From Brevibacterium yomogidense (GTDB taxonomy: Bacteria; Actinomycetota; Actinomycetes; Actinomycetales; Brevibacteriaceae), in NCBI RefSeq assembly GCF_016107685.1, contig NZ_JABASY010000006.1:186001-250000 (forward strand): a stretch of DNA of 64,000 nt, given 5' to 3'. The notes beneath the pieces were generated by a model, which saw nothing but the letters and a program-made list of their open reading frames with translations, was not told where the DNA came from and searched no databases. Positions 5,031 through 13,782 of this stretch are shown piece by piece; positions within the stretch are counted from its first letter, which is position 1, and each line of letters begins with the position of its first letter. Position numbers and translations under genes: made by a program.

Positions 5031-6113
5031 GTGGCTCTTACTATCGGAATCGTCGGACTGCCCAACGTCGGCAAGTCGACCATGTTCAATGCGCTGACCA
5101 AGAATCAGGTGCTCGCCGCGAACTACCCCTTCGCGACCATCGAGCCGAATGTGGGCGTCGTCCCGCTGCCTGACCCCCGACTGAACCGGTTGGCGGAGGT
5201 GTTCGGTTCGGAGAAGATCCTCCCGGCGACCGTCAGCTTCGTCGACATCGCGGGGATCGTCCGCGGCGCTTCGGAAGGGGAGGGGCTCGGCAACCAGTTC
5301 CTCGCGAACATCCGCGAGGCGGATGCGATCTGCCAGGTGATCCGCGCGTTCTCCGATGAGGACGTCGTGCACGTCGACGGCAAGGTGTCGCCGTCGGACG
5401 ACATCGACACGATCAACACGGAGCTGATCCTCGCGGATCTCCAGACGATCGAGAAGGCTCAGCCGCGGATCGAGAAGGAGGTCAAGCAGAAGAAGACCGA
5501 TGCTGCTGTCCTCGACGCGATGACCAAGGCGCAGACGATCCTCGAAGAGGGCCGGACGCTCTTCCAGGCGATGGGCGACGGGTTCGACGCCGAACCGCTG
5601 GAGGACCTCCAGCTCATGACGACGAAGCCGTTCCTCTACGTCTTCAACGTCGACGACGACATCCTGGAGGACGAGGCGAAGAAGGACGAACTGCGGTCTC
5701 TCGTCGCCCCGATCGAGGCGATCTTCCTCGACGCGAAGTTCGAGTCCGAACTCGCGGAGCTTGACGAGGCCGAGGCCGCAGAGATGCTCGAGATGAGCGG
5801 CCAGGACGAGGCCGGGCTGGACCAGCTGGCTCGCGTGGGCTTCGACACCCTGGGACTGCAGACGTACCTCACTGCGGGACCGAAGGAATCGCGGGCGTGG
5901 ACGGTCCCGAAGGGTGCGACCGCTCCCGAGGCCGCGGGCGTCATCCACACCGACTTCCAGAAGGGCTTCATCAAGGCCGAGGTCGTGTCCTTCGCGGATC
6001 TGGACGAGCTGGGTTCCATGGCTGCGGCCAAGGCTGCCGGCAAGGTGCGGATGGAGGGCAAGGACTACATCATGGTCGATGGCGACGTGGTCGAATTCAG
6101 GTTCAATGTCTAA
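5031..6113 (+). CDS. ychF: Redox-regulated ATPase/GTPase YchF
   Basis: 360 residues, full length for the family. Starts with GTG at 5031. The G1 loop GLPNVGKST is at residues 9-17, the DIAGIVRGASEGEGLGNQFL switch region follows near residue 68, and the C-terminal TGS domain carries the signature IHTDFQKGFI. YchF binds ribosomes and hydrolyses ATP; it is nearly universal. The last codons before the stop (GAA TTC AGG TTC AAT GTC TAA) use AGG and AAT, unlike the GC-rich codons of the rest of the gene. This fits replacement of the gene end by an integrated element, because a GC-rich synonymous version of the same codons reappears at 12612-12636. Confidence 0.95.
   Translation: MALTIGIVGLPNVGKSTMFNALTKNQVLAANYPFATIEPNVGVVPLPDPRLNRLAEVFGSEKILPATVSFVDIAGIVRGASEGEGLGNQFLANIREADAICQVIRAFSDEDVVHVDGKVSPSDDIDTINTELILADLQTIEKAQPRIEKEVKQKKTDAAVLDAMTKAQTILEEGRTLFQAMGDGFDAEPLEDLQLMTTKPFLYVFNVDDDILEDEAKKDELRSLVAPIEAIFLDAKFESELAELDEAEAAEMLEMSGQDEAGLDQLARVGFDTLGLQTYLTAGPKESRAWTVPKGATAPEAAGVIHTDFQKGFIKAEVVSFADLDELGSMAAAKAAGKVRMEGKDYIMVDGDVVEFRFNV
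6089..6113 (+). other. Putative attL: ychF 3' end, left border of island
   Basis: These 25 bases encode the end of YchF (Val-Glu-Phe-Arg-Phe-Asn-Val-stop). The same eight codons recur at 12612-12636. 20 of 25 bases are identical and all five differences are synonymous third- or first-position changes (GAA/GAG, AGG/CGG, TTC/TTT, AAT/AAC, TAA/TAG). That is what integration into a gene's 3' end leaves when the element brings its own copy of the gene tail. Confidence 0.75.
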
Positions 6114-7011
6114 ATAGCCGCTTTGACCAGGGATTTTATCTTCTCGGTCTTCGGTTGGGGCTGATAGGCGAGTTCCGATCGACTAACAGTTGCTAAGCGT
6201 TTATCCTGCTGACCTGGGATTTTGATCGTCCCCTGCGGAGCTCCCGCCAGGGCCGATTCTCTTTTGTGCGGTGCGGTTGCGTCTCTGGCAAGCCGCCTCG
6301 GCTGGCCCATTCTGGGGCGGGTGCGAGTCGTTCGACGTGCGATGTCTCGGCAGGCCCGCTGACTCAAAAATCAGTCTGACTCAATAATCGGAACTCGACG
6401 GGGATCGATCGTTGCAGGTGCTCGCGTCACCGGTTGCCTAGTTACCGGCATCTCGCCGCTCGAACACGATCAATGCGCTCACCGATGCAACCACTCACCA
6501 CGTTGCCATCGCTATGCCTACCGGTGCCAGGTCGAGGAGACCTATGGTCCGATAGTCATCGAGGAGCTGGATGCCGGCCGATCGAGAAAGCGCTGCGGAA
6601 AGAGGAAGAGCGCCAGTCTAGAGATGGCGAGTCTGAGTACGAGCGGCACCACTATCACGGCAGTCACGGTGAAGCTGCTGGCCAAGACGGTGGCTGAGGC
6701 CCGCTCGACCAGCGCGTGCGCATCCCTCTCGAAGCCAATGACTGTCCAATGTCGGGACCTTGTGAGATGGTTCCCCAGTGAGTATCGACCACGACGTCAA
6801 GAACTGGCCAATGCGGCTTGGCGAGACTTATTGCTCCGGATTAGTTGCCCAGGCGTGGCCACCAATATTGTCCGCGGATGCGGGACGCGGTTCGGGGCTA
6901 GCCGTCGAGGCGACTCTGTAGTGCTTCTATGTCGCCCTCCGGCACGGAGTCTGGTTGGGACGGTGCGGACCGCACTTATGCTCGATACGACAATCAATGC
7001 AACGGAGAGTC
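6114..7011. other. Left island segment without a convincing gene
   Basis: About 900 bp with lower GC than the flanks. It contains the first 107-bp direct repeat (6285-6391). Open frames here are short, lack ribosome sites and have no recognisable domains. On the minus strand around 6560-6760 a frame without a good start codes for a hydrophobic stretch and could be a remnant of a membrane protein. The promoter of the CBASS operon should lie in its last 200 bases, but I could not assign -35/-10 boxes with confidence. Confidence 0.5.
6285..6391 (+). repeat. 107-bp direct repeat, copy A (left of CBASS)
   Basis: Pairs without gaps with 8613-8719; I count 13 mismatches in 107 (about 88% identity). 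The last part, from GCTGACTCAAAAATC onward for 27 bases, is identical and contains two TGACTCA boxes. The first 21 bases are also identical. The two copies bracket the CBASS operon. Confidence 0.9.
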
Positions 7012-7899
7012 ATGGTTACTGAAGAGAAATTGGCTGGGTGGACAGGTCCCTCGAGTCCGACCGAGAAAGACAAACAGGAGCGCACCGAGCGAATGATTCG
7101 AGAGGCGATCGACGCTCATGAGGGATTCGATGGCTACCGAAGCGACTTCGCCATATACGCGAAAGGCTCCTACGCCAACAACACGAACGTAAAGTCAGAC
7201 AGCGACGTCGACATCGTCATCGAGTGCACAGATGTTTGCTACTGGCAGGAGCACGATCCTGCCAAGGGTGGACACCCTGCAGGGAGTCCTTACACGGGTC
7301 CATGGACCCCGGAGAAGCTTAGGGCGGAGATCGCCGCAGCGCTTGAGAAGAAGTTCCCCGGGGCTGTCACCGCGGGGTCGACGGCGTTCGAGGTTGATGC
7401 CAGTTCGGCACGCGTCAACGCCGACGTGGTGCCCTCTTTCACGTACAAGCTCTACTTCTCAGATGGCAGCTATCGCCAGGGTACGAAGGTCTTCAAAAAA
7501 GACGGCACGGCCATCGTCAACTATCCGAAGCTCCAGCTTGAGCGCGGCAAGGAAAAGAACGTGCGTACAAATGGTCTCTACAAGAAAACTGTGCGCATCT
7601 TCAAGCGACTGGAGAACGAGCTCGTCGCGAAGGGCCTGACCGAGGAAGTTCCGTCCTACCTTCTCGAGTGCCTTATATACAACTGCCCCGAAGAGAACTT
7701 CTCGCGAGACACGTGGCGTGGGACGATGCGCGGATGCCTGGCAAAGATCTTCAACTCCACCATGGGACCTGAGCCTGACGAGGATCGCTGGATGGAAGCG
7801 AATGGTTCGAAGTTCTTGTTTCACCCTGCTCAGAAGTGGACGAGAGCGCAGGTTCATAAGTTCGCGAGCGACGCCTGGGATTACATGGAGTTCGAATGA
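7012..7899 (+). CDS. CBASS CD-NTase (cGAS/DncV-like nucleotidyltransferase)
   Basis: 295 residues from ATG 7012, which has ACGGAGAG directly upstream; the longer frame from 6955 has no such site. The CD-NTase signature is present: GS at residues 52-53, then D65-V-D67 in KSDSDVDIV, and the third metal-binding Asp at 138 in VNADVVPSF. A C-terminal helical domain follows with NYPKLQLERG and VPSYLLECLIYNCP, typical of SMODS-type enzymes. Such enzymes make a cyclic di- or trinucleotide on phage infection; which nucleotide cannot be read from the sequence. The stop overlaps the next start (ATGA), so the two are translationally coupled. No Cap2 or Cap3 gene is adjacent, so this would be a minimal (type I) CBASS operon. 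Confidence 0.88.
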   Translation: MVTEEKLAGWTGPSSPTEKDKQERTERMIREAIDAHEGFDGYRSDFAIYAKGSYANNTNVKSDSDVDIVIECTDVCYWQEHDPAKGGHPAGSPYTGPWTPEKLRAEIAAALEKKFPGAVTAGSTAFEVDASSARVNADVVPSFTYKLYFSDGSYRQGTKVFKKDGTAIVNYPKLQLERGKEKNVRTNGLYKKTVRIFKRLENELVAKGLTEEVPSYLLECLIYNCPEENFSRDTWRGTMRGCLAKIFNSTMGPEPDEDRWMEANGSKFLFHPAQKWTRAQVHKFASDAWDYMEFE

Positions 7900-8522
7900 T
7901 TAGCGGGATCCTTATTCGAGTGCTCGTGGTAATCGTCTCCGTGGTTTTTGTCGTCGGATCGTGGATTACCACTGGTGCGCCTAACCTGAGCCTGTTCAGC
8001 TTCTTCTCGATCGCTGTTCTCGTGTGCACGATCTTGTTCATCCTGTGGGACCAATGGCTCTGGAAGTCGAAGCTCACCCAAATGATCCCGGGAGTGAGTC
8101 GCAACTTGAGTGGCACCTGGGAAGCCACCCTCGAGTCGTTGTGGATCAATCCCGCGACGAGTTCGTCGCCGCCCGCGAAGACCGTCTACATGGTTATTCG
8201 GCAGACAAGCTCCACCGCGTCTGTCACGCTCATCTCGGATGAATCCAAGTCGAAGTCGTCGCTTGCGCGCGTGGTCAAGGAGGACGGGTCTTGGCTGCTT
8301 CACTACGTCTATACAAATGAGCCTCGTCTCGAGAGCCGAGGGCGAAGCCCAATCCACCACGGGTCAGCGGTGCTTGCTGTGACCGGCTCGCCGGCGAAGC
8401 GCCTAGAGGGTCGTTACTGGACAGACCGTGATTCGAAGGGGCAGCTCAAGCTGATGAAGCGATCGAAGACGCTCGCTGAGGACTTCGAGGAAGCTCGTGA
8501 AGCATTGAAGGATAAGGACTAG
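7896..8522 (+). CDS. cap15: Cap15-like CBASS effector (2 TM + beta-barrel)
   Basis: 208 residues, overlapping the CD-NTase stop by four bases. Two membrane helices come first: about residues 5-25 (LIRVLVVIVSVVFVVG) and 33-53 (FSFFSIAVLVCTILFIL). A soluble domain then begins at NLSGTWEATL (about residue 70) and continues with VYMVIRQTSSTASVTLIS, LHYVYTNEP, HHGSAVLAV and LEGRYWTDRDSKGQLKL, alternating strands that match the eight-stranded cyclic-nucleotide-binding barrel of Cap15. Cap15 effectors oligomerise in the membrane on ligand binding and damage it, stopping phage spread. Assignment is by pattern and gene order; I could not run a profile search. Confidence 0.88.
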   Translation: MISGILIRVLVVIVSVVFVVGSWITTGAPNLSLFSFFSIAVLVCTILFILWDQWLWKSKLTQMIPGVSRNLSGTWEATLESLWINPATSSSPPAKTVYMVIRQTSSTASVTLISDESKSKSSLARVVKEDGSWLLHYVYTNEPRLESRGRSPIHHGSAVLAVTGSPAKRLEGRYWTDRDSKGQLKLMKRSKTLAEDFEEAREALKDKD

Positions 8523-8612
8523 CCATGCGCTCGACGTCGTTGTCCGGATCTCTTTCGTGGTGGTCCCGGTGCGCCATCCGTGCGAGTTCGAAGCGATTCT
8601 GCATGAGCGTAG

Positions 8613-8719
8613 CTGGCAAGCCGCCTCGGCTGGTCAGCTCCGGGGCGGGTTCGAGTCGTTCGGCGCGCGATCTCTCGGCAGGTGCGCTGACTCAAAAATC
8701 AGTCTGACTCAAAAGTCGG
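8613..8719 (+). repeat. 107-bp direct repeat, copy B (right of CBASS)
   Basis: Gap-free partner of 6285-6391. It begins 90 bp after the effector stop codon and ends 20 bp before the stop codon of the minus-strand gene at 8740. A GGGTTCGAGTC segment resembles a tRNA T-loop, but no tRNA can be folded around it. Confidence 0.9.
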
Positions 8720-8739
8720 TTGCCTCAACAACGCGGGGT

Positions 8740-9627
8740 TCACTCTGGCAGGTCTCGTTCTGCCAGAGTGCGAGTGATCTCGTCCCACTGGGAGCTCGCG
8801 ATCAGTTGGCGGTGCCGGTGCATGGCGGTCTGCCATGCCCCGAACTCTGTTGGGAGCTCACGCCACTTGATGCCAGTGCGGGTCTTGTAGAGAGCCGCGT
8901 CGACGATCGTGCGTACGTCAGTGCGTGGCCGCCCGCGGCGGGGGCTCTCCTCTGAATGAACGATGTGCTTGATCCAGCTCCATTGCTCATCTGTAAGTCG
9001 TTGATAGTCAGACTGGAGGCCCTCGATGTCGCTGCTGTCGTCACCATCCTTCGCCTGGTCATCGATTCGCACGGCTTTGACCACGCCGCGGATGACAGCA
9101 CATTCGGTGCATTGGACGGTTGGTTCAACGTTGCGAGGGAAGTGCCCGGCCAAGGTCTCGACGTGCTGGCAGGTCAGTTCTACGCGCCAGGTGGCGCTGC
9201 GGTCGACGTGCAATGAGGGTGGGTATAGGGGCTGTCGGAGCTCATCGCGCTGAGCCGGCGAAAGTGGCGGGAACGGACAGCACAGGTGGCAGTGCTCCAC
9301 CCTGTTGTTCTCGAGACGCCAAACACCCATGTTGCATGCCTTGTGTTCTGCTCGGAACTCGGCATTGTCGGCGTCGATCAGCGCGAGGCTCTCTTCATCA
9401 GTACCCAGAGCTGGCTCACCGAGAAGGGCGCGCCCGCACGCGCGGCATGGTTCGCCTGCTGCATAGGCTCCGTACGTCAGCTGGCGGTCGTTGCCTGCCC
9501 GTTCCCTCCGCTTCGCCTCCTCTGCTGGGGCCCACGATTCCGAGAGCAGTGCCGTGCTGCGTGATGTGTGCAGGACGCGGGGGAGAGCTGTCGAGCTCCC
9601 GTCGGGGATCTGCTGCGAATCGGGCAT
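8740..9627 (-). CDS. Cys-rich zinc-binding-like protein fused to IS5-type transposase N-domain (DUF4096)
   Basis: 295 residues from ATG 9627, which has a perfect AAGGAG at the right distance; the frame stays open further upstream but with shadow-like composition. Residues 60-130 carry clustered Cys/His (CRACG, EHKAC, HCHLCC) suggesting one or two zinc sites. The last 90 residues (from LTDEQWSWIKHIV through GRPRTDVRTIVDAALYKTRTGIKWRELP) match the DUF4096 N-terminal domain of IS5-family transposases, but no DDE catalytic domain follows, so it is not a working transposase. It may be a domesticated DNA-binding protein. It is divergent from an XRE regulator. Function unknown. Confidence 0.75.
   Translation of the reverse strand: MPDSQQIPDGSSTALPRVLHTSRSTALLSESWAPAEEAKRRERAGNDRQLTYGAYAAGEPCRACGRALLGEPALGTDEESLALIDADNAEFRAEHKACNMGVWRLENNRVEHCHLCCPFPPLSPAQRDELRQPLYPPSLHVDRSATWRVELTCQHVETLAGHFPRNVEPTVQCTECAVIRGVVKAVRIDDQAKDGDDSSDIEGLQSDYQRLTDEQWSWIKHIVHSEESPRRGRPRTDVRTIVDAALYKTRTGIKWRELPTEFGAWQTAMHRHRQLIASSQWDEITRTLAERDLPE
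8741..8770 (-). terminator. Hairpin overlapping the 3' end of the DUF4096-protein gene
   Basis: Arms CACTCTGGCAG (8741-8751) and CTGCCAGAGTG (8760-8770) pair perfectly over 11 bp with an 8-base loop. The structure includes the stop codon of the minus-strand gene. No T-run follows. It may act as a terminator or stabilise the transcript end. Confidence 0.5.
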
Positions 9628-9707
9628 CGTCACGCTCTCCTTCGAGGTCTGATGCGGCCGCAGTGCGAGTCGTGCGCGACCCACCTCGACAGCAACTGGA
9701 AGCGATA

Positions 9708-9720
9708 ACTTCCTGGAAGT
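9708..9720. promoter_or_regulatory. Palindrome abutting the XRE start codon
   Basis: ACTTCC-T-GGAAGT is a perfect 13-base palindrome one base before the ATG at 9722. A second GGAAG...CTTCC pair overlaps it on the left. Its place in the divergent intergenic region makes it a good operator candidate for the XRE protein. Confidence 0.5.
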
Positions 9721-9721
9721 C

Positions 9722-9964
9722 ATGACTACCAAACCTGAGGCTGGATGTGTGACAGAACCGCTGAAAAAGGTGCTTGGAGCGCAGGTGCGCGACCTGCGTC
9801 TTGCGCGCCACCTGTCGCAGGAAGGTCTTGCCGAAGAACTCGAAGTGTCGACTCGGTACCTTGTCGGCATCGAGCGTGGCGAGCGCAACCTCACCCTGGA
9901 CTCCGTCGATGCCCTGGCGGAGCAACTCGGCGTTGAGGCCCATGAATTGGTCGTCCCTCGGTGA
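9722..9964 (+). CDS. XRE/Cro-family helix-turn-helix regulator
   Basis: 80 residues, essentially one HTH_3 domain: VRDLRLARHLSQEGLAEELEVSTRYLVGIERGERNLTLDSVDALAEQL. The start at ATG 9722 has no Shine-Dalgarno, so the transcript may be leaderless; GTG 9749 is an alternative. It is divergent from the DUF4096-type gene (94 bp between starts) and probably controls that promoter and its own through the palindrome at 9708-9720. In defence islands such small regulators often keep the cargo silent; that role here is inference. Confidence 0.85.
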   Translation: MTTKPEAGCVTEPLKKVLGAQVRDLRLARHLSQEGLAEELEVSTRYLVGIERGERNLTLDSVDALAEQLGVEAHELVVPR

Positions 9965-10226
9965 CGTTCGGCGCTCGAGTCACTCTTGCGCGGCGAACTG
10001 GATGGGCATCATGGATGCCTGGCTAAGCAGACACGACTTCGGGCGAGATGAAAGAATGTCAGTAATGCCGTCTACTTTCAGTGTTGGTTAGGCGGCATCA
10101 CCAGTACCAGCTTCGTCGCCGCGCCGCTCGGCTCCGCCGTGTCAGTGCCAGCGTCGCTGGTGGCTGTCGTTGCGGAGCATGGGCGGGCGCTACTGCGCCT
10201 GCGGTGTGGCGTGGGATCATGGACCC

Positions 10227-10412
10227 ATGGCTACTGATGACATCGAGCGCGCGCCGAAGGTCATCCGCTGTGAGCACTGGTCTGAGGAGCTTGGTCGCTT
10301 CGGCGGCTGGCACCACCACGAGGGTCCTCACGCGTGCGACTGGGGGAACCACGATGGCGCGTGTCCGTACTGGGTCAGCGTTGGCGGAAGGCCGAACCTT
10401 GAATCTCAGTAG
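10227..10412 (+). CDS. Small His/Cys-rich hypothetical protein
   Basis: 61 residues from ATG 10227. Unusually rich in His, Trp and Cys (GWHHHEGPHACDWGNHDGACPYW), which suggests a metal site. No family recognised and the ribosome site is weak, so it may not be expressed. It lies inside the island between the XRE gene and the DUF6119-like gene, with no close operon partner. Confidence 0.4.
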   Translation: MATDDIERAPKVIRCEHWSEELGRFGGWHHHEGPHACDWGNHDGACPYWVSVGGRPNLESQ

Positions 10413-10582
10413 AGGGAGTCGTGCAGCCATGGCAAGCGGTCCAGTGTCGTCTGCTGGCTCTCCTCGCGACTCCCATTAACCATGTCGTAGCCGCGAGCCT
10501 TGCCCGAGACCTTGAATCGGCGTGGCTCGCCGTTGATTCGTTAGCTTGTCCGACCGTCCAACTTCTGGGCAGGCATCCGCCG

Positions 10583-12220
10583 TTATTGCTCCAAAGCCGG
10601 AGGCGGGGGCGCGATCGTAGCTACGCGAACCTTCACATCAAGGTAGCGAAGCGCGTCGTACTGCTTGACCAGGTTCACCTTCGTGAAGGTAAACAGGGTG
10701 TCGACCGTGATCGGATCCTCCTTGCCAATTGCGAGGACCACTTCCCTGAGCTCGGCCTTGTCGACCACTCCCTTGCTCTCCTCAGCAATGCGTTTCGTCC
10801 ATGCATTGCGTGCACTCTCATCTCGTGCGAGGGCGTCAGTAGACACAAGTCCTTGCGCGAGAAGGTGGCTGAGGTCAGCCGACTGCCGCCCGCGCTTCAC
10901 ATGGATCAGGGTGCCCGGAGCGACGAACACGTCGCAGGGTTCGATCCCGCCACGCGAATGAAGCGGAGTTGTGATCAGCTTCCTGTCCAAGCAGTACCCC
11001 GACAGGGCCTCGGCGGCGTGCTTGTTGTAGGCATCCTCGTACTCCTCACCCCACGGAGGCATGGTTACTGAGGCAGGCTCAGACAGAATCTCACGAACGC
11101 GGTCGTCGATTCGGGCAAGGTACTGGTCATCCATCCGGTACCAGTTTCCATCGTGCAGACAGAATCGTTGGCCGTCTTCCTCGACCTCGAATGCGAGCCA
11201 CCGCCGCAGTGGCACAGGCGTGGAAACAAGCGTATGGACCTGGGGATCTGCCTCGCTGTGCAGCTCGATCTTCACGGATTTCAGACGGTCGAGGATCGCC
11301 TCTCTTGGTGTATCCGCGAGCCACTCGATCACGTCGCTCGTGTCGGGCGCTTGGTCAAAGACCCGCCGTTTGCGATCCCCCAAGCCGGTGACTTTGACGC
11401 TCATCATCGGGCCGTAGGCATCAAGACGCTCGTGCGGCCAGGACACCCCGAGGCGCTTGCCCGCATCTGACTTCAAGGCGTCAACGAGCTTCTCGTCGAG
11501 CGCAGGTACTCGGCTGTCCTTGGCCTTGAGCGCGACGAGTTGCTCAAGGCTCTCCAAGCCTGTTCGGACGGGCTGACGCAACAGATCATCGAGAACCTTG
11601 AGGTCTGCGAGCAAAGGTCCTGCTGACTTTGCGAGTGGTGCTTTCAGAGAGTCCGCCGCGCTCAGCTGCACGACCTTGTCTCCAACACTGAGGTCACTGA
11701 TCCGCGCCTTCGCCTCAATCCTGCTGACGACCTCGCCGTAGCCGTCTACTCCGAGATCACGAATCGTGCTTCCGTTCGGCATCGAACTCCGATCCACACG
11801 AGCTCTGTGGTCCAAGATGGTCTTCGTCAGCGACTTGATTTCCGAGGGAAGCGCAGACCGCGCAACGATGCGCGAGCCGAAGCCGAAGTCAATCTGCTCC
11901 GAATCCAAGAAGTGGAACCCGGTGCCCCAGGTGATGGCCCAGATTACGTCTCCAGTGTCCTGGAGCAATAGGGCAGCGCCGGGGGAGCGGTTCTTGAGGT
12001 CAACGGTTTGGCCGGTGAGGAGCTTCAGATCCGCCGACCACTTGGCCTTGGTCGTGATGGAGCCGGAAACAAGGCGCGCGGGTCGATCTTCTACCTGGAG
12101 GTCGGTGACGTTGAAGTTGTCATCTGTCTCTCGCCGAGACTCGGTCAGCGCTGTCTCAAACGTGCTTCCGTCAAGCATCCTGTAGAGCGTTGTCCGCTTC
12201 GTCGCAACAATCTGCACCAT
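10583..12220 (-). CDS. TIGR04141/DUF6119-like sporadically distributed protein
   Basis: 545 residues from ATG 12220; the 53 codons upstream in frame look non-coding. The N-terminus (TLYRMLDGSTFETALTE), the internal DVIWAITWGTGFHFL and FGSRIVARSALP, and the C-terminal DVFVAPGTLIHVKRGRQSADLSHLLAQGLVS are the pattern I associate with the family named TIGR04141 (DUF6119), which occurs patchily in bacteria and tends to sit in accessory or defence regions. Its biochemical function is not known to me. It is a lone gene on the minus strand within the island, and its codon use is less GC-rich than in flanking genes. Family call is from memory, not a search. Confidence 0.65.
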   Translation of the reverse strand: MVQIVATKRTTLYRMLDGSTFETALTESRRETDDNFNVTDLQVEDRPARLVSGSITTKAKWSADLKLLTGQTVDLKNRSPGAALLLQDTGDVIWAITWGTGFHFLDSEQIDFGFGSRIVARSALPSEIKSLTKTILDHRARVDRSSMPNGSTIRDLGVDGYGEVVSRIEAKARISDLSVGDKVVQLSAADSLKAPLAKSAGPLLADLKVLDDLLRQPVRTGLESLEQLVALKAKDSRVPALDEKLVDALKSDAGKRLGVSWPHERLDAYGPMMSVKVTGLGDRKRRVFDQAPDTSDVIEWLADTPREAILDRLKSVKIELHSEADPQVHTLVSTPVPLRRWLAFEVEEDGQRFCLHDGNWYRMDDQYLARIDDRVREILSEPASVTMPPWGEEYEDAYNKHAAEALSGYCLDRKLITTPLHSRGGIEPCDVFVAPGTLIHVKRGRQSADLSHLLAQGLVSTDALARDESARNAWTKRIAEESKGVVDKAELREVVLAIGKEDPITVDTLFTFTKVNLVKQYDALRYLDVKVRVATIAPPPPALEQ

Positions 12221-12603
12221 AGCTCTTGGTAGCACGGGTTGTGTTGCCGTAGGTGCTGGCCGCGCGAGTCGAGACCCATAAGTTATTCGTCGGTCATGGA
12301 GGATTGCCGAGCAGTCCCGAGCGTTATGCGACTCTGGCTGCTCTTGGCGCTGTGTCAGTGAGACGCCTGACGCGCGCACTTGGCCAAAGGACCCAGGGGA
12401 GCGGCGCGAGCTCCCCGGCCCGTCCGATCCAGCGTCTATCAGTCCTCAGGATGACCTCGACGAGCCCCGGATGCTAATCTGGTCTCTGGTGCTCCAACTG
12501 GCGCAGGTCTCCCTCTGCGTAGTTGCTCCTCGCACTAAAGACCCAGGTCAGACTGCATTTGTTAGCCAGGGAACAGCCTTAGCACCAAAGGTTCCGAAAG
12601 CAT

Positions 12604-12623
12604 CGGAACTCGGTCGAGTTCCG
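12604..12623. promoter_or_regulatory. 20-base palindrome at the right island border
   Basis: CGGAACTCG-GT-CGAGTTCCG has perfect 9-base arms. Its right arm overlaps the start of the duplicated ychF tail and it is 47 bp upstream of higB. It could be a recombinase core-site dyad or a HigA operator; the sequence alone does not decide. Confidence 0.4.
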
Positions 12624-12636
12624 GTTTAACGTCTAG
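12612..12636 (+). other. Putative attR: second copy of the ychF 3' end
   Basis: Encodes Val-Glu-Phe-Arg-Phe-Asn-Val-TAG with GC-rich codons (GTC GAG TTC CGG TTT AAC GTC). No reading frame runs into it, so it is not part of a gene. It is the natural partner of 6089-6113 and marks the right edge of the island. The GC-rich codons suggest that this copy is the original chromosomal end of ychF. Confidence 0.75.
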
Positions 12637-12669
12637 CGTTATTGACGGTCCGCGTTATATGCTGGCCTG

Positions 12670-12951
12670 GTGATCAGATCGTTTGGCAGCAAGGACACCG
12701 AACGGCTGTGGCGTCGTGAACGCGTGCGCTCGATCGATCCGAGGATCCATCGGGTGGCGCTGCGCAAGCTTCGTCAGGTGGGGTCCGCGGGGTTGCTCGA
12801 TGACCTCCGCGTCCCACCCGGTAACCGGCTCGAGGCGCTGAAGGGCGATCGGGCCGGGCAGCACAGCATCAGGATCAACGACCAGTGGCGGATCTGCTTC
12901 GTGTGGACCGACGCAGGACCGGAGGAGGTGGAGATCGTTGACTACCATTGA
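12670..12951 (+). CDS. higB: HigB/RelE-type toxin (mRNA endonuclease)
   Basis: 93 residues starting at GTG 12670. The sequence MIRSFGSKDTERLWRRE, HRVALRKLRQVGSAGLLDDL, PPGNRLEALKGDRAGQHSIRIN and WRICFVWTDAG is the classic host-inhibition-of-growth HigB pattern. HigB toxins cleave mRNA on the ribosome. The toxin gene precedes the antitoxin and overlaps it by 14 bases, the usual hig order. It starts 33 bp after the attR-like site, just outside the island. Confidence 0.92.
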   Translation: MIRSFGSKDTERLWRRERVRSIDPRIHRVALRKLRQVGSAGLLDDLRVPPGNRLEALKGDRAGQHSIRINDQWRICFVWTDAGPEEVEIVDYH

Positions 12952-13240
12952 CAAGATCGATCCGATCCACCCCGGAGAGGTCCTCATGGAGGACTTCATC
13001 GAGGGGTTCGGCATCACGCAGAACAAGCTCGCCGTGTCGATCGGCGTCCCGCCGCGCCGGATCAACGAGATCGTGCACGGCAAGCGGGGGATCACGGCGG
13101 ACACCGCCCTGCGCCTCGCGAAGTACTTCGGCACCTCGGCGGAGTTCTGGATCAATCTGCAGAGCCACTATGAGCTCGACCGCGCGGAGGATCTAGCGGG
13201 GGAGCAGATCGCCTCGATCACGCCGCTGAACGTCGCATGA
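12938..13240 (+). CDS. higA: HigA-type antitoxin (XRE family)
   Basis: 100 residues starting at TTG 12938, preceded by GGAGGAGGTGGAG inside higB. IHPGEVLMEDFIEGFGITQNKLAVSIGVPPRRINEIVHGKRGITADTALRLAKYFGTSAEFWINLQ is the HigA helix-turn-helix. It neutralises HigB and represses the operon. Its stop overlaps the ATG of the following kinase gene (ATGA), so three genes are translationally coupled. Confidence 0.93.
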   Translation: MTTIDKIDPIHPGEVLMEDFIEGFGITQNKLAVSIGVPPRRINEIVHGKRGITADTALRLAKYFGTSAEFWINLQSHYELDRAEDLAGEQIASITPLNVA

Positions 13241-13782
13241 CCTCTGGGGTGACCGGCTCGGAGAGTTCTCGTCTGATCATCATCCGCGGGAACTCGGGCA
13301 GTGGGAAGTCGCATTTGGCGCAGGCGATCCGAGTTGCGCGACCGCGCGGCGTGGCGATCATCGGCCATGATGTGCTTCGGCGAGAGATCCTCCATGTTCG
13401 CGACCATCCGGGCGCGTTGAGCGTGCCGTACATCGATCTGTCGGCGCGGTTCGCGCTCGACAACGGCCTCGACGTCGTGATCGAAGGCATCCTGCATTCC
13501 GAGAGCTATGGCGAGATGCTCGCTCAGCTGCGAAAAGATCATGCTGGTCTGACTCGCTGCTACTGCTATGAACTCGACCTTGACGAGACGCTCGAACGGC
13601 ATCGAACGAAGGCATTGGCCGCGGAGGTGTCGGAGGCCGATGTCGCGTCCTGGTACCGCAGTGCAGACCGGGTCGCTGCCCTGGATGAGTCAGTATTCGA
13701 TGCCACGGTGAGCGCCGCCGACGCTCTGCAGCAGGTCCTCGCGGACGTGGGGTGGAGCAAGGCGCTCGATATCGGTTCATGA
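13237..13782 (+). CDS. P-loop kinase (zeta-toxin/AAA-like) coupled to higBA
   Basis: 181 residues. Walker A GNSGSGKS at residues 18-25; then GHDVLRREIL, a conserved hydrophobic stretch DNGLDVVIEGILHSESYGEML and LDETLERHRTK, the pattern of small actinobacterial P-loop kinases related to zeta toxins and chloramphenicol phosphotransferases. The substrate is unknown. The start overlaps the higA stop, so it is expressed with the toxin-antitoxin pair. It could be a passenger enzyme or a modifier of the HigBA module; no sequence feature decides. Confidence 0.75.
   Translation: MTSGVTGSESSRLIIIRGNSGSGKSHLAQAIRVARPRGVAIIGHDVLRREILHVRDHPGALSVPYIDLSARFALDNGLDVVIEGILHSESYGEMLAQLRKDHAGLTRCYCYELDLDETLERHRTKALAAEVSEADVASWYRSADRVAALDESVFDATVSAADALQQVLADVGWSKALDIGS

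Follow-up and report, generated by a model that had tools for sequence, protein, structure and literature searches.

We observed that a gene of the DUF6119/TIGR04141 family in the 64,000-nt window (the whole stretch of DNA analysed here) occupies its own cassette within an island at the 3' end of ychF, and that relatives of this gene recur beside DNA-methylation-based defence systems. We give roughly even chances to the reading that DUF6119 is a single-gene anti-phage cassette, in which a DNA-holding RdgC/RexA-like N-domain, a middle domain and a PD-(D/E)XK-like nuclease would be combined within a modular defence island. The observations behind this reading are the family identity, the island borders, the separate cassette, the sporadic spread, the enrichment for methylation-based defence and a set of invariant residues.

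10583..12220, minus strand: DUF6119/TIGR04141 gene, 545 aa, stop codon included in the coordinates

The reading frame starts with the ATG at 12220 on the minus strand and stays open upstream to a GTG at 12379; the plus-strand reading of 10583-12220 is broken by four stops. The protein was matched by Pfam PF19614 DUF6119 (E 2.1e-111, 374 bits at a cut-off of 27, profile positions 2-523 of 524) and by TIGR04141 of NCBIfam (E 2.2e-95, 320 bits at a cut-off of 35, positions 2-516 of 516). Since both profiles are matched end to end and far above their cut-offs, the protein is a full-length member of the family and the match is not due to chance. DUF6119 was the sole Pfam match at E up to 0.01, PADLOC-DB gave 0 matches at E 0.01, and a housekeeping family was ruled out, none having been matched in Pfam, NCBIfam or PADLOC. 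A PDB sequence search with the family profile listed 60 rows, all of them beta-2-microglobulin (best E 0.14), which we took as chance.

The distribution of the family is sporadic. Within the family group 3 of 60 genomes are carriers, and in a sample of the phylum 12 of 396 (the window's own genome counted in both); a sample of the phylum to which G502 belongs, itself picked as a known carrier and counted, gave 10 of 398, and the control genomes gave 0 of 14. This agrees with the sequence-only reading that had placed the 545-residue protein in a patchy TIGR04141/DUF6119 family. At E 1e-5, DUF6119 was present in 25 of 72,556 plasmid records and in 1 of 50,697 phage records, and three IMG/VR contigs were found by one pattern. 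In a quick tree of 57 members (L049 left out), the window protein groups with the copies of G033 and G366 (40% identity, SH-aLRT 99), and these three fall in an actinobacterial clade of seven. The sequence family is already known, without an attached function and named only for its scattered distribution; no account of its function was found in open-licence PMC papers, and a description outside that set is possible.

We next consider the island, whose borders and cassette are placed as follows.

6089..6113, no strand: left border, proposed attL, the ychF 3' end (BLAST blocks and repeat comparison)
12612..12636, no strand: right border, proposed attR, an imperfect copy of the ychF 3' end (BLAST blocks and repeat comparison)
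10473..12464, no strand: DUF6119 cassette, ~2.0 kb absent from G055 (BLAST blocks; ends approximate)

The final 25 bp of ychF (6089-6113) have an imperfect second copy at 12612-12636. Close behind this copy, at about 12670-13240, comes a toxin-antitoxin-like pair that we take, by eye, to be higBA. In two relatives (G044 and G046) the higBA block comes directly after ychF, with the two matches overlapping by ~23 bp, and a third (G010) has two higBA-type blocks, the first one abutting ychF. We read this as a ~6.5-kb island inserted at the ychF 3' end in the window, and the island borders that had been proposed from the letters alone are borne out by the two ychF 3'-end copies and by the direct ychF-higBA junctions in these three genomes. 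No integrase was recognised by eye inside the island, no RNA family reached gathering scores in 5900-13400, and the window holds no tRNA genes. A small AAA/zeta-toxin-like kinase ORF lies at 13237-13782, just past the right border.

The cargo of sister genomes at the ychF site differs from that of the window, and much of it is defence-like. In G055 it comprises a protein kinase, an OLD-like ATPase and a type I R-M system (names by eye), and a PADLOC scan of ychF-downstream ORFs from 13 genomes, which covered 77 of the 99 ORFs listed and had no control set, gave matches of AriA, type II and type III methyltransferases, Old and GajA to two or three ORFs each. The ychF 3' end is likely a defence-island site in this genus. 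Partial ychF 3'-end copies of 400-490 bp were also seen downstream of ychF in two relatives, G025 and G022 (L076, L077), and suggest tandem islands at the site. Genome G047 has five near full-length ychF matches on contigs C3 and C34, four of them on one contig, which is either an assembly fault or repeated islands.

G055 shares window positions 10134-10472 and 12465-12666 and lacks the interval that holds DUF6119 and its upstream region (BLAST). Because it keeps both flanks but not the ~2 kb DUF6119 segment, DUF6119 is a separate cassette, which was gained in the window genome or lost in G055. The cassette ends are approximate, as a global alignment with G055 loses its clean match after 10407 and regains it at 12485.

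The remainder of the island between ychF and the cassette contains the following features.

7012..7899, plus strand: CBASS CD-NTase (PADLOC Cyclase E 3e-121; Pfam/NCBIfam; start placed by eye)
7896..8522, plus strand: CBASS Cap15-like 2TM effector (PADLOC E 2.6e-75; Pfam Cap15_CD_rec E 1.3e-15)
6279..6391, no strand: 113-bp direct repeat, copy 1, left of CBASS (repeat comparison)
8607..8719, no strand: 113-bp direct repeat, copy 2, 87% identical, right of CBASS (repeat comparison)
8740..9894, minus strand: ORF with a C-terminal IS5-type DUF4096 part (profile search; island scaffold common to G055)
9722..9964, plus strand: putative XRE-type HTH ORF, 80 aa (read by eye)

The CD-NTase and Cap15-type effector genes overlap and form a two-gene CBASS; its presence in the same island as DUF6119, claimed earlier, is confirmed by both PADLOC and Pfam. 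The 113-bp repeat on either side of the CBASS module may be a trace of its entry: one copy is found ~165 bp after ychF in the sister genomes G037 and G055, and G014 has one copy on a different contig from its ychF. The ORF at 8740-9894 joins a Cys-rich N-part to the IS5-type DUF4096 part. Given that G055 carries positions 8747-10132 at 89% identity, this ORF may be a fragment of a transposase that has been domesticated. The ORF at 9722-9964 presumably encodes an XRE-type HTH protein, judged by its motif.

To characterize the surroundings of the family, we dereplicated 60 DUF6119 loci at 75% identity, which left 48 (817 kb), and set these against 57 control regions (984 kb), which came mostly from the carriers' own genomes and mostly from contig 1; the window's own genome, G496, the plasmid and viral records and three short contigs were without control regions. 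Neighbourhood ORFs were called by a simple script and clustered by single linkage, most clusters being named from one or two members. An HsdM cluster was present in 12 of the 48 dereplicated loci and in 0 of the 57 control regions (Fisher p 3.6e-5, relatedness ignored). HsdM is on the same strand as DUF6119 in 8 of these 12 loci (8 of all 48) and within 6.5 kb in 11 of the 12. An HsdR cluster was found in 5 loci and a RhuM-type cluster in 3, each in 0 of the control regions, and an integrase-like cluster (a putative label) in 7 loci and 1 control; other neighbour clusters were equally common or commoner in the controls (6 vs 7, 3 vs 8). Of the 141 nearest ORFs, 7 were matched by PADLOC models of type I specificity; no such model is among the 25 of 58 listed for 128 control ORFs (141 minus thirteen long ORFs left out). 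The PADLOC models with any match numbered 442 for the nearest ORFs and 58 for the control ORFs (25 of each listed); these models are redundant, so the two figures are not gene counts. By Pfam, which was run without a control, the 141 nearest ORFs include Methylase_S (7), N6_Mtase (6), Eco57I (5), Phage_integrase (4), RhuM (3), N6_N4_Mtase (3) and HSDR_N (3).

DUF6119 is also placed within operons. The gene order hsdM-DUF6119-hsdS was found in L034 (checked with Pfam) and, by cluster membership, in L040 and L043. L029 has hsdM, two small ORFs and then hsdS-DUF6119-hsdR (hsdS checked with Pfam), L101 has hsdM-RhuM, a 398-aa ORF (presumably hsdS) and DUF6119-hsdR (hsdR checked with Pfam), and L024, L045 and L048 show hsdR-DUF6119 by cluster membership. 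A complete DISARM operon, drmD-drmMI-DUF6119-drmA-drmB-drmC, lies at L092:1822-16792, the one locus in which such an operon was checked, with genes that abut or are a few bases apart; abutting or overlapping genes are also seen in the R-M orders. The G033 and G366 copies adjoin an Eco57I-type methyltransferase and a second protein without a Pfam or PADLOC match that we take, by eye, for a restriction enzyme. Copies on Streptomyces plasmids lie near type I R-M genes on the opposite strand, and in L054 DUF6119 comes two places after an IetS-like peptidase. Most DUF6119 loci lie outside R-M operons.

The recurrent partners are DNA-methylation systems, namely type I R-M, a type II-like pair and DISARM, and no CBASS was recognised among them. 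The sequence-only reading had named a lack of enrichment near defence genes, or a match to a housekeeping family, as grounds against it; on this sample, HsdM stands at 12/48 vs 0/57 and no housekeeping family was matched. Its proposal of a role in defence or mobile-element biology gains support from this enrichment, but the enrichment found is with methylation-based defence rather than with CBASS. When R-M labels were assigned by hand to the tree, 'any R-M neighbour' required a minimum of 13 changes and 'R-M operon' a minimum of 8, which means that R-M partners come and go; the labels are somewhat clustered, with 4 changes each between two labelled groups against a shuffled mean of 6.6. A whole-genome N6_Mtase search of the window's genome gave one weak match, to a 1601-aa protein on contig C12, none in the island and no ordinary HsdM. 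As this single match lies in a protein elsewhere, a type I partner is not expected in the window genome.

Several further settings were observed. The 1601-aa protein (L168:6338-11143) is a helicase-methyltransferase, type ISP-like by eye, and near it on the same contig lies a 458-aa protein that matches Mrr_cat (L168:3091-4467). In L099 and L100, a radical-SAM gene and a 237-aa gene are directly upstream of DUF6119 on the same strand, a context unlike R-M. Pseudomonas phage vB_PaeS-D14B (L051) carries its DUF6119 homologue close to the end of the record, with an annotated integrase gene on each side.

The protein itself was divided into three predicted domains, with four invariant residues in the last of them.

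11576..12220, minus strand: N-domain, residues 1-215, RdgC/Iml3-like predicted fold (window model, viral library, L028 domain model)
11078..11563, minus strand: putative middle domain, residues 220-381 (weak roadblock/PAS-like matches)
10601..11059, minus strand: C-domain, residues 388-540, predicted PD-(D/E)XK-like nuclease fold (EndoMS Z 6.5, FokI 6.4, SduA 5.7, CdiA-CT 5.6)
11036..11038, minus strand: E395, invariant (57/57), on the helix before the sheet (alignment and model)
10940..10942, minus strand: E427, invariant (57/57), role proposed (alignment)
10931..10933, minus strand: D430, invariant (57/57), proposed catalytic Asp (alignment)
10895..10903, minus strand: H440-V441-K442, proposed xxK strand; K442 57/57 (alignment)

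In the model of the window protein (pLDDT 77, pTM 0.74), the best eight structural rows are EndoMS, FokI, SduA and CdiA-CT, twice each, at Z 6.5-5.2, and all but one cover residues ~388-545; these proteins are PD-(D/E)XK-type nucleases or toxins. All 57 aligned members have E395, E427, D430 and K442, as do all 28 in a smaller alignment, and further conserved positions are D412 and Q456 (56/57 each) and N399, C429 and H452 (55/57 each). These four acidic and basic residues suggest an enzyme centre of some kind. The canonical PD-(D/E)XK motif has an acidic residue two before the Lys. At position 440, two before K442, 51 of 57 members have His, and the others have Cys (2), Leu (2), Phe (1) or Gln (1); the position is never acidic and not fixed, and E427 may replace the missing acid. 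The conserved Asp and Lys of PD-(D/E)XK members are thus present (D430 and K442, 57/57) and the acid two before the Lys is absent, so we call the domain PD-(D/E)XK-like only. The order Asp..x-Lys would fit D165, E179 and K181 of EndoMS, residues named in PMC7343888, in a form four residues shorter, when paired from the aligned ranges.

The N-domain gave a second predicted fold. Residues 6-218 of the window model match RdgC (Z 4.1) and kinetochore chain L (Z 3.6 and 3.4). The domain was also modelled alone from the first 366 residues of a relative, L028, 18% identical to the window protein (pLDDT 86.5, pTM 0.81). The first seven rows for this model are RdgC twice (Z 6.3), Iml3 and four kinetochore chains L, the last five at Z 4.7-4.1; we take the chains L for CENP-L/Iml3. 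The RdgC match covers 163 residues at rmsd 4.3, the match to lambda RexA is a poor row (Z 3.7 but rmsd 13.2), and once RdgC, the kinetochore chains and RexA are set aside, the highest-scoring match to these residues is at Z 2.9. In a viral structure library, phage RdgC proteins have the top two probabilities (0.60 and 0.57) of the 50 rows listed, at E ~0.01-0.02. PMC11077077 assigns one common fold, with a role in DNA binding, to RexA, RdgC and IML3/CHL4, and gives a DALI Z of only 4.4 between RexA and RdgC. Between the two outer domains, residues 222-365 of the L028 model have weak roadblock/PAS-like matches at Z 3.9 and below.

Both folds are known from prediction only. In none of the three Foldseek searches, viral library included, did a match reach E 0.001, and the Z of 6.3-6.5 of the domain matches is within the range that unrelated models can give. 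The RdgC family profile (PF04381) does not match the DUF6119 ORF in Pfam at E up to 0.01, hhalign of the N-domain with 24 RdgC sequences gave P 0.17, and hhalign of the C-domain with 21 Mrr sequences gave P 0.032, the best of 8 comparisons and uncorrected. Profile homology of DUF6119 to Mrr or RdgC is thus not significant by hhalign. Given Foldseek E above 0.001, Z values that can arise by chance, failed profile tests and no acid before K442, we write that DUF6119 'works like' these proteins and not that it 'is a member' of their families.

DUF6119 is probably a DNA-sensing nuclease that serves defence and not housekeeping. In the mechanism that we propose, the RdgC/RexA-like N-domain would hold DNA, probably as a dimer, and would sense a DNA state born of infection, such as replication or recombination intermediates, ends, or unmodified DNA passed on by a restriction system; the nuclease C-domain (E395, E427, D430, K442) would then cut the sensed DNA. 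Within type I R-M operons, which hold a good share of carriers, and in one DISARM, DUF6119 would act as an accessory nuclease, and the window copy would act without an R-M or DISARM partner in its island. Because the fold matches are middling (Z 6.3-6.5), the profile tests failed and there is no acid before K442, we infer the function of DUF6119, that is, DNA binding, cleavage, the trigger and protection against phages. A bolder version, which we hold only tentatively and think more doubtful than probable, is that DUF6119 is a widespread unnamed defence nuclease, with a DNA-encircling sensor of RexA/RdgC type fused to a PD-(D/E)XK-like nuclease of unusual centre; it would serve as a solo cassette and be repeatedly recruited into type I R-M or DISARM systems as a second line that destroys DNA once the primary system is blocked or has cut.

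The operon positions also fit a guard like PrrC, held silent by the type I R-M or DISARM complex, freed when a phage inhibits that complex, and then cutting DNA or RNA and stopping the cell. The gene prrC sits at such places in type I R-M operons, and DUF6119 lies just before hsdR in L029 and L101 and between hsdM and hsdS in L034, L040 and L043, with some overlapping genes, as well as inside the DISARM operon of L092. However, most loci lie outside such operons, and the window has no N6_Mtase match in its island and no ordinary HsdM in its genome (one weak match, in the 1601-aa protein), so we consider a guard unlikely. Somewhat less probable still is a gene for mobile-element maintenance or phage-encoded exclusion, which would serve its carrier element, for instance against competing phages, as RexA does for lambda. 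The Pseudomonas phage D14B copy, flanked by annotated integrase genes on both sides, the three IMG/VR contigs, the 25 plasmid records and an integrase family in 4 of the 141 nearest ORFs are consistent with such a gene; phage copies are rare (1 in 50,697 records) while HsdM occurs in 12 of 48 loci, and the putative integrase-like cluster is found in only 7 loci vs 1 control.

An accessory role in DNA repair or recombination, in which an RdgC-like protein with a structure-specific nuclease processes cut ends and limits self-damage by restriction, would account for DUF6119 adjoining restriction enzymes and for RdgC-like and EndoMS-like matches, both being to DNA-repair or recombination proteins. 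We think this improbable, as a sporadic distribution and cassette behaviour misfit a repair gene and no repair operon was recognised by eye in the recurrent neighbours. Finally, DUF6119 shares its island with CBASS, ~2 kb away, and could be a functional part of it as an extra effector, but this seems to us very improbable indeed. The gene is on the opposite strand, with the repeat, the IS5-type ORF and the HTH ORF in between; G055 is without the cassette yet has its flanks; the CBASS already has its own 2TM effector; and no CD-NTase was recognised in the 45 neighbour clusters listed or in the 25 listed of 442 PADLOC models. Membership of CBASS was accordingly rejected on the opposite strand, the separate cassette and the lack of a PADLOC match. 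As DUF6119 forms a one-gene cassette of its own and lies on the strand opposite to CBASS, their adjacency in the window is probably incidental.

If the anti-phage nuclease reading is true, it ties the DNA-binding fold of RexA, RdgC and kinetochore proteins to a nuclease as well as to the operons of R-M and DISARM, and these systems gain an accessory gene. Neither the domain reading nor membership of DUF6119 in DISARM or R-M operons was found in open-licence PMC papers. The domain reading, the named residues and the set of partners make DUF6119 testable.

Among known families, the window protein is a full-length member of TIGR04141/PF19614, well above both curated cut-offs. With PrrC and other R-M-linked ORFs, DUF6119 shares a place inside type I R-M operons; it differs in that many copies, the window's included, have no R-M neighbour, and PrrC domains are unlike those of DUF6119. 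Lambda RexA and RdgC (PF04381) resemble the predicted fold of the N-domain, without a sequence match to DUF6119 and, for RexA, with a poor structural row (rmsd 13.2); neither is known to carry a nuclease domain. PMC11077077 describes RexA as a DNA-binding protein of phage exclusion. EndoMS/NucS and the FokI cleavage domain gave the best structural rows for residues 388-545 and likewise have an Asp followed by x-Lys. FokI has an Asp at the site matching His440 of DUF6119. EndoMS has E179 (PMC7343888) where DUF6119 has His440 or another non-acid. The Shedu and DUF4263 models of Pfam and PADLOC do not match the DUF6119 ORF at E 0.01, and DUF6119 differs from Shedu in its RdgC-like N-domain and in having no acid two before the Lys. 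Shedu (SduA) is a single-protein PD-(D/E)XK defence nuclease with an N-terminal sensor-like part, and DUF6119 resembles it in being a single protein with a predicted nuclease fold at the C-terminus (137 residues matched to SduA at Z 5.7) behind an N-terminal part that may act as a sensor.
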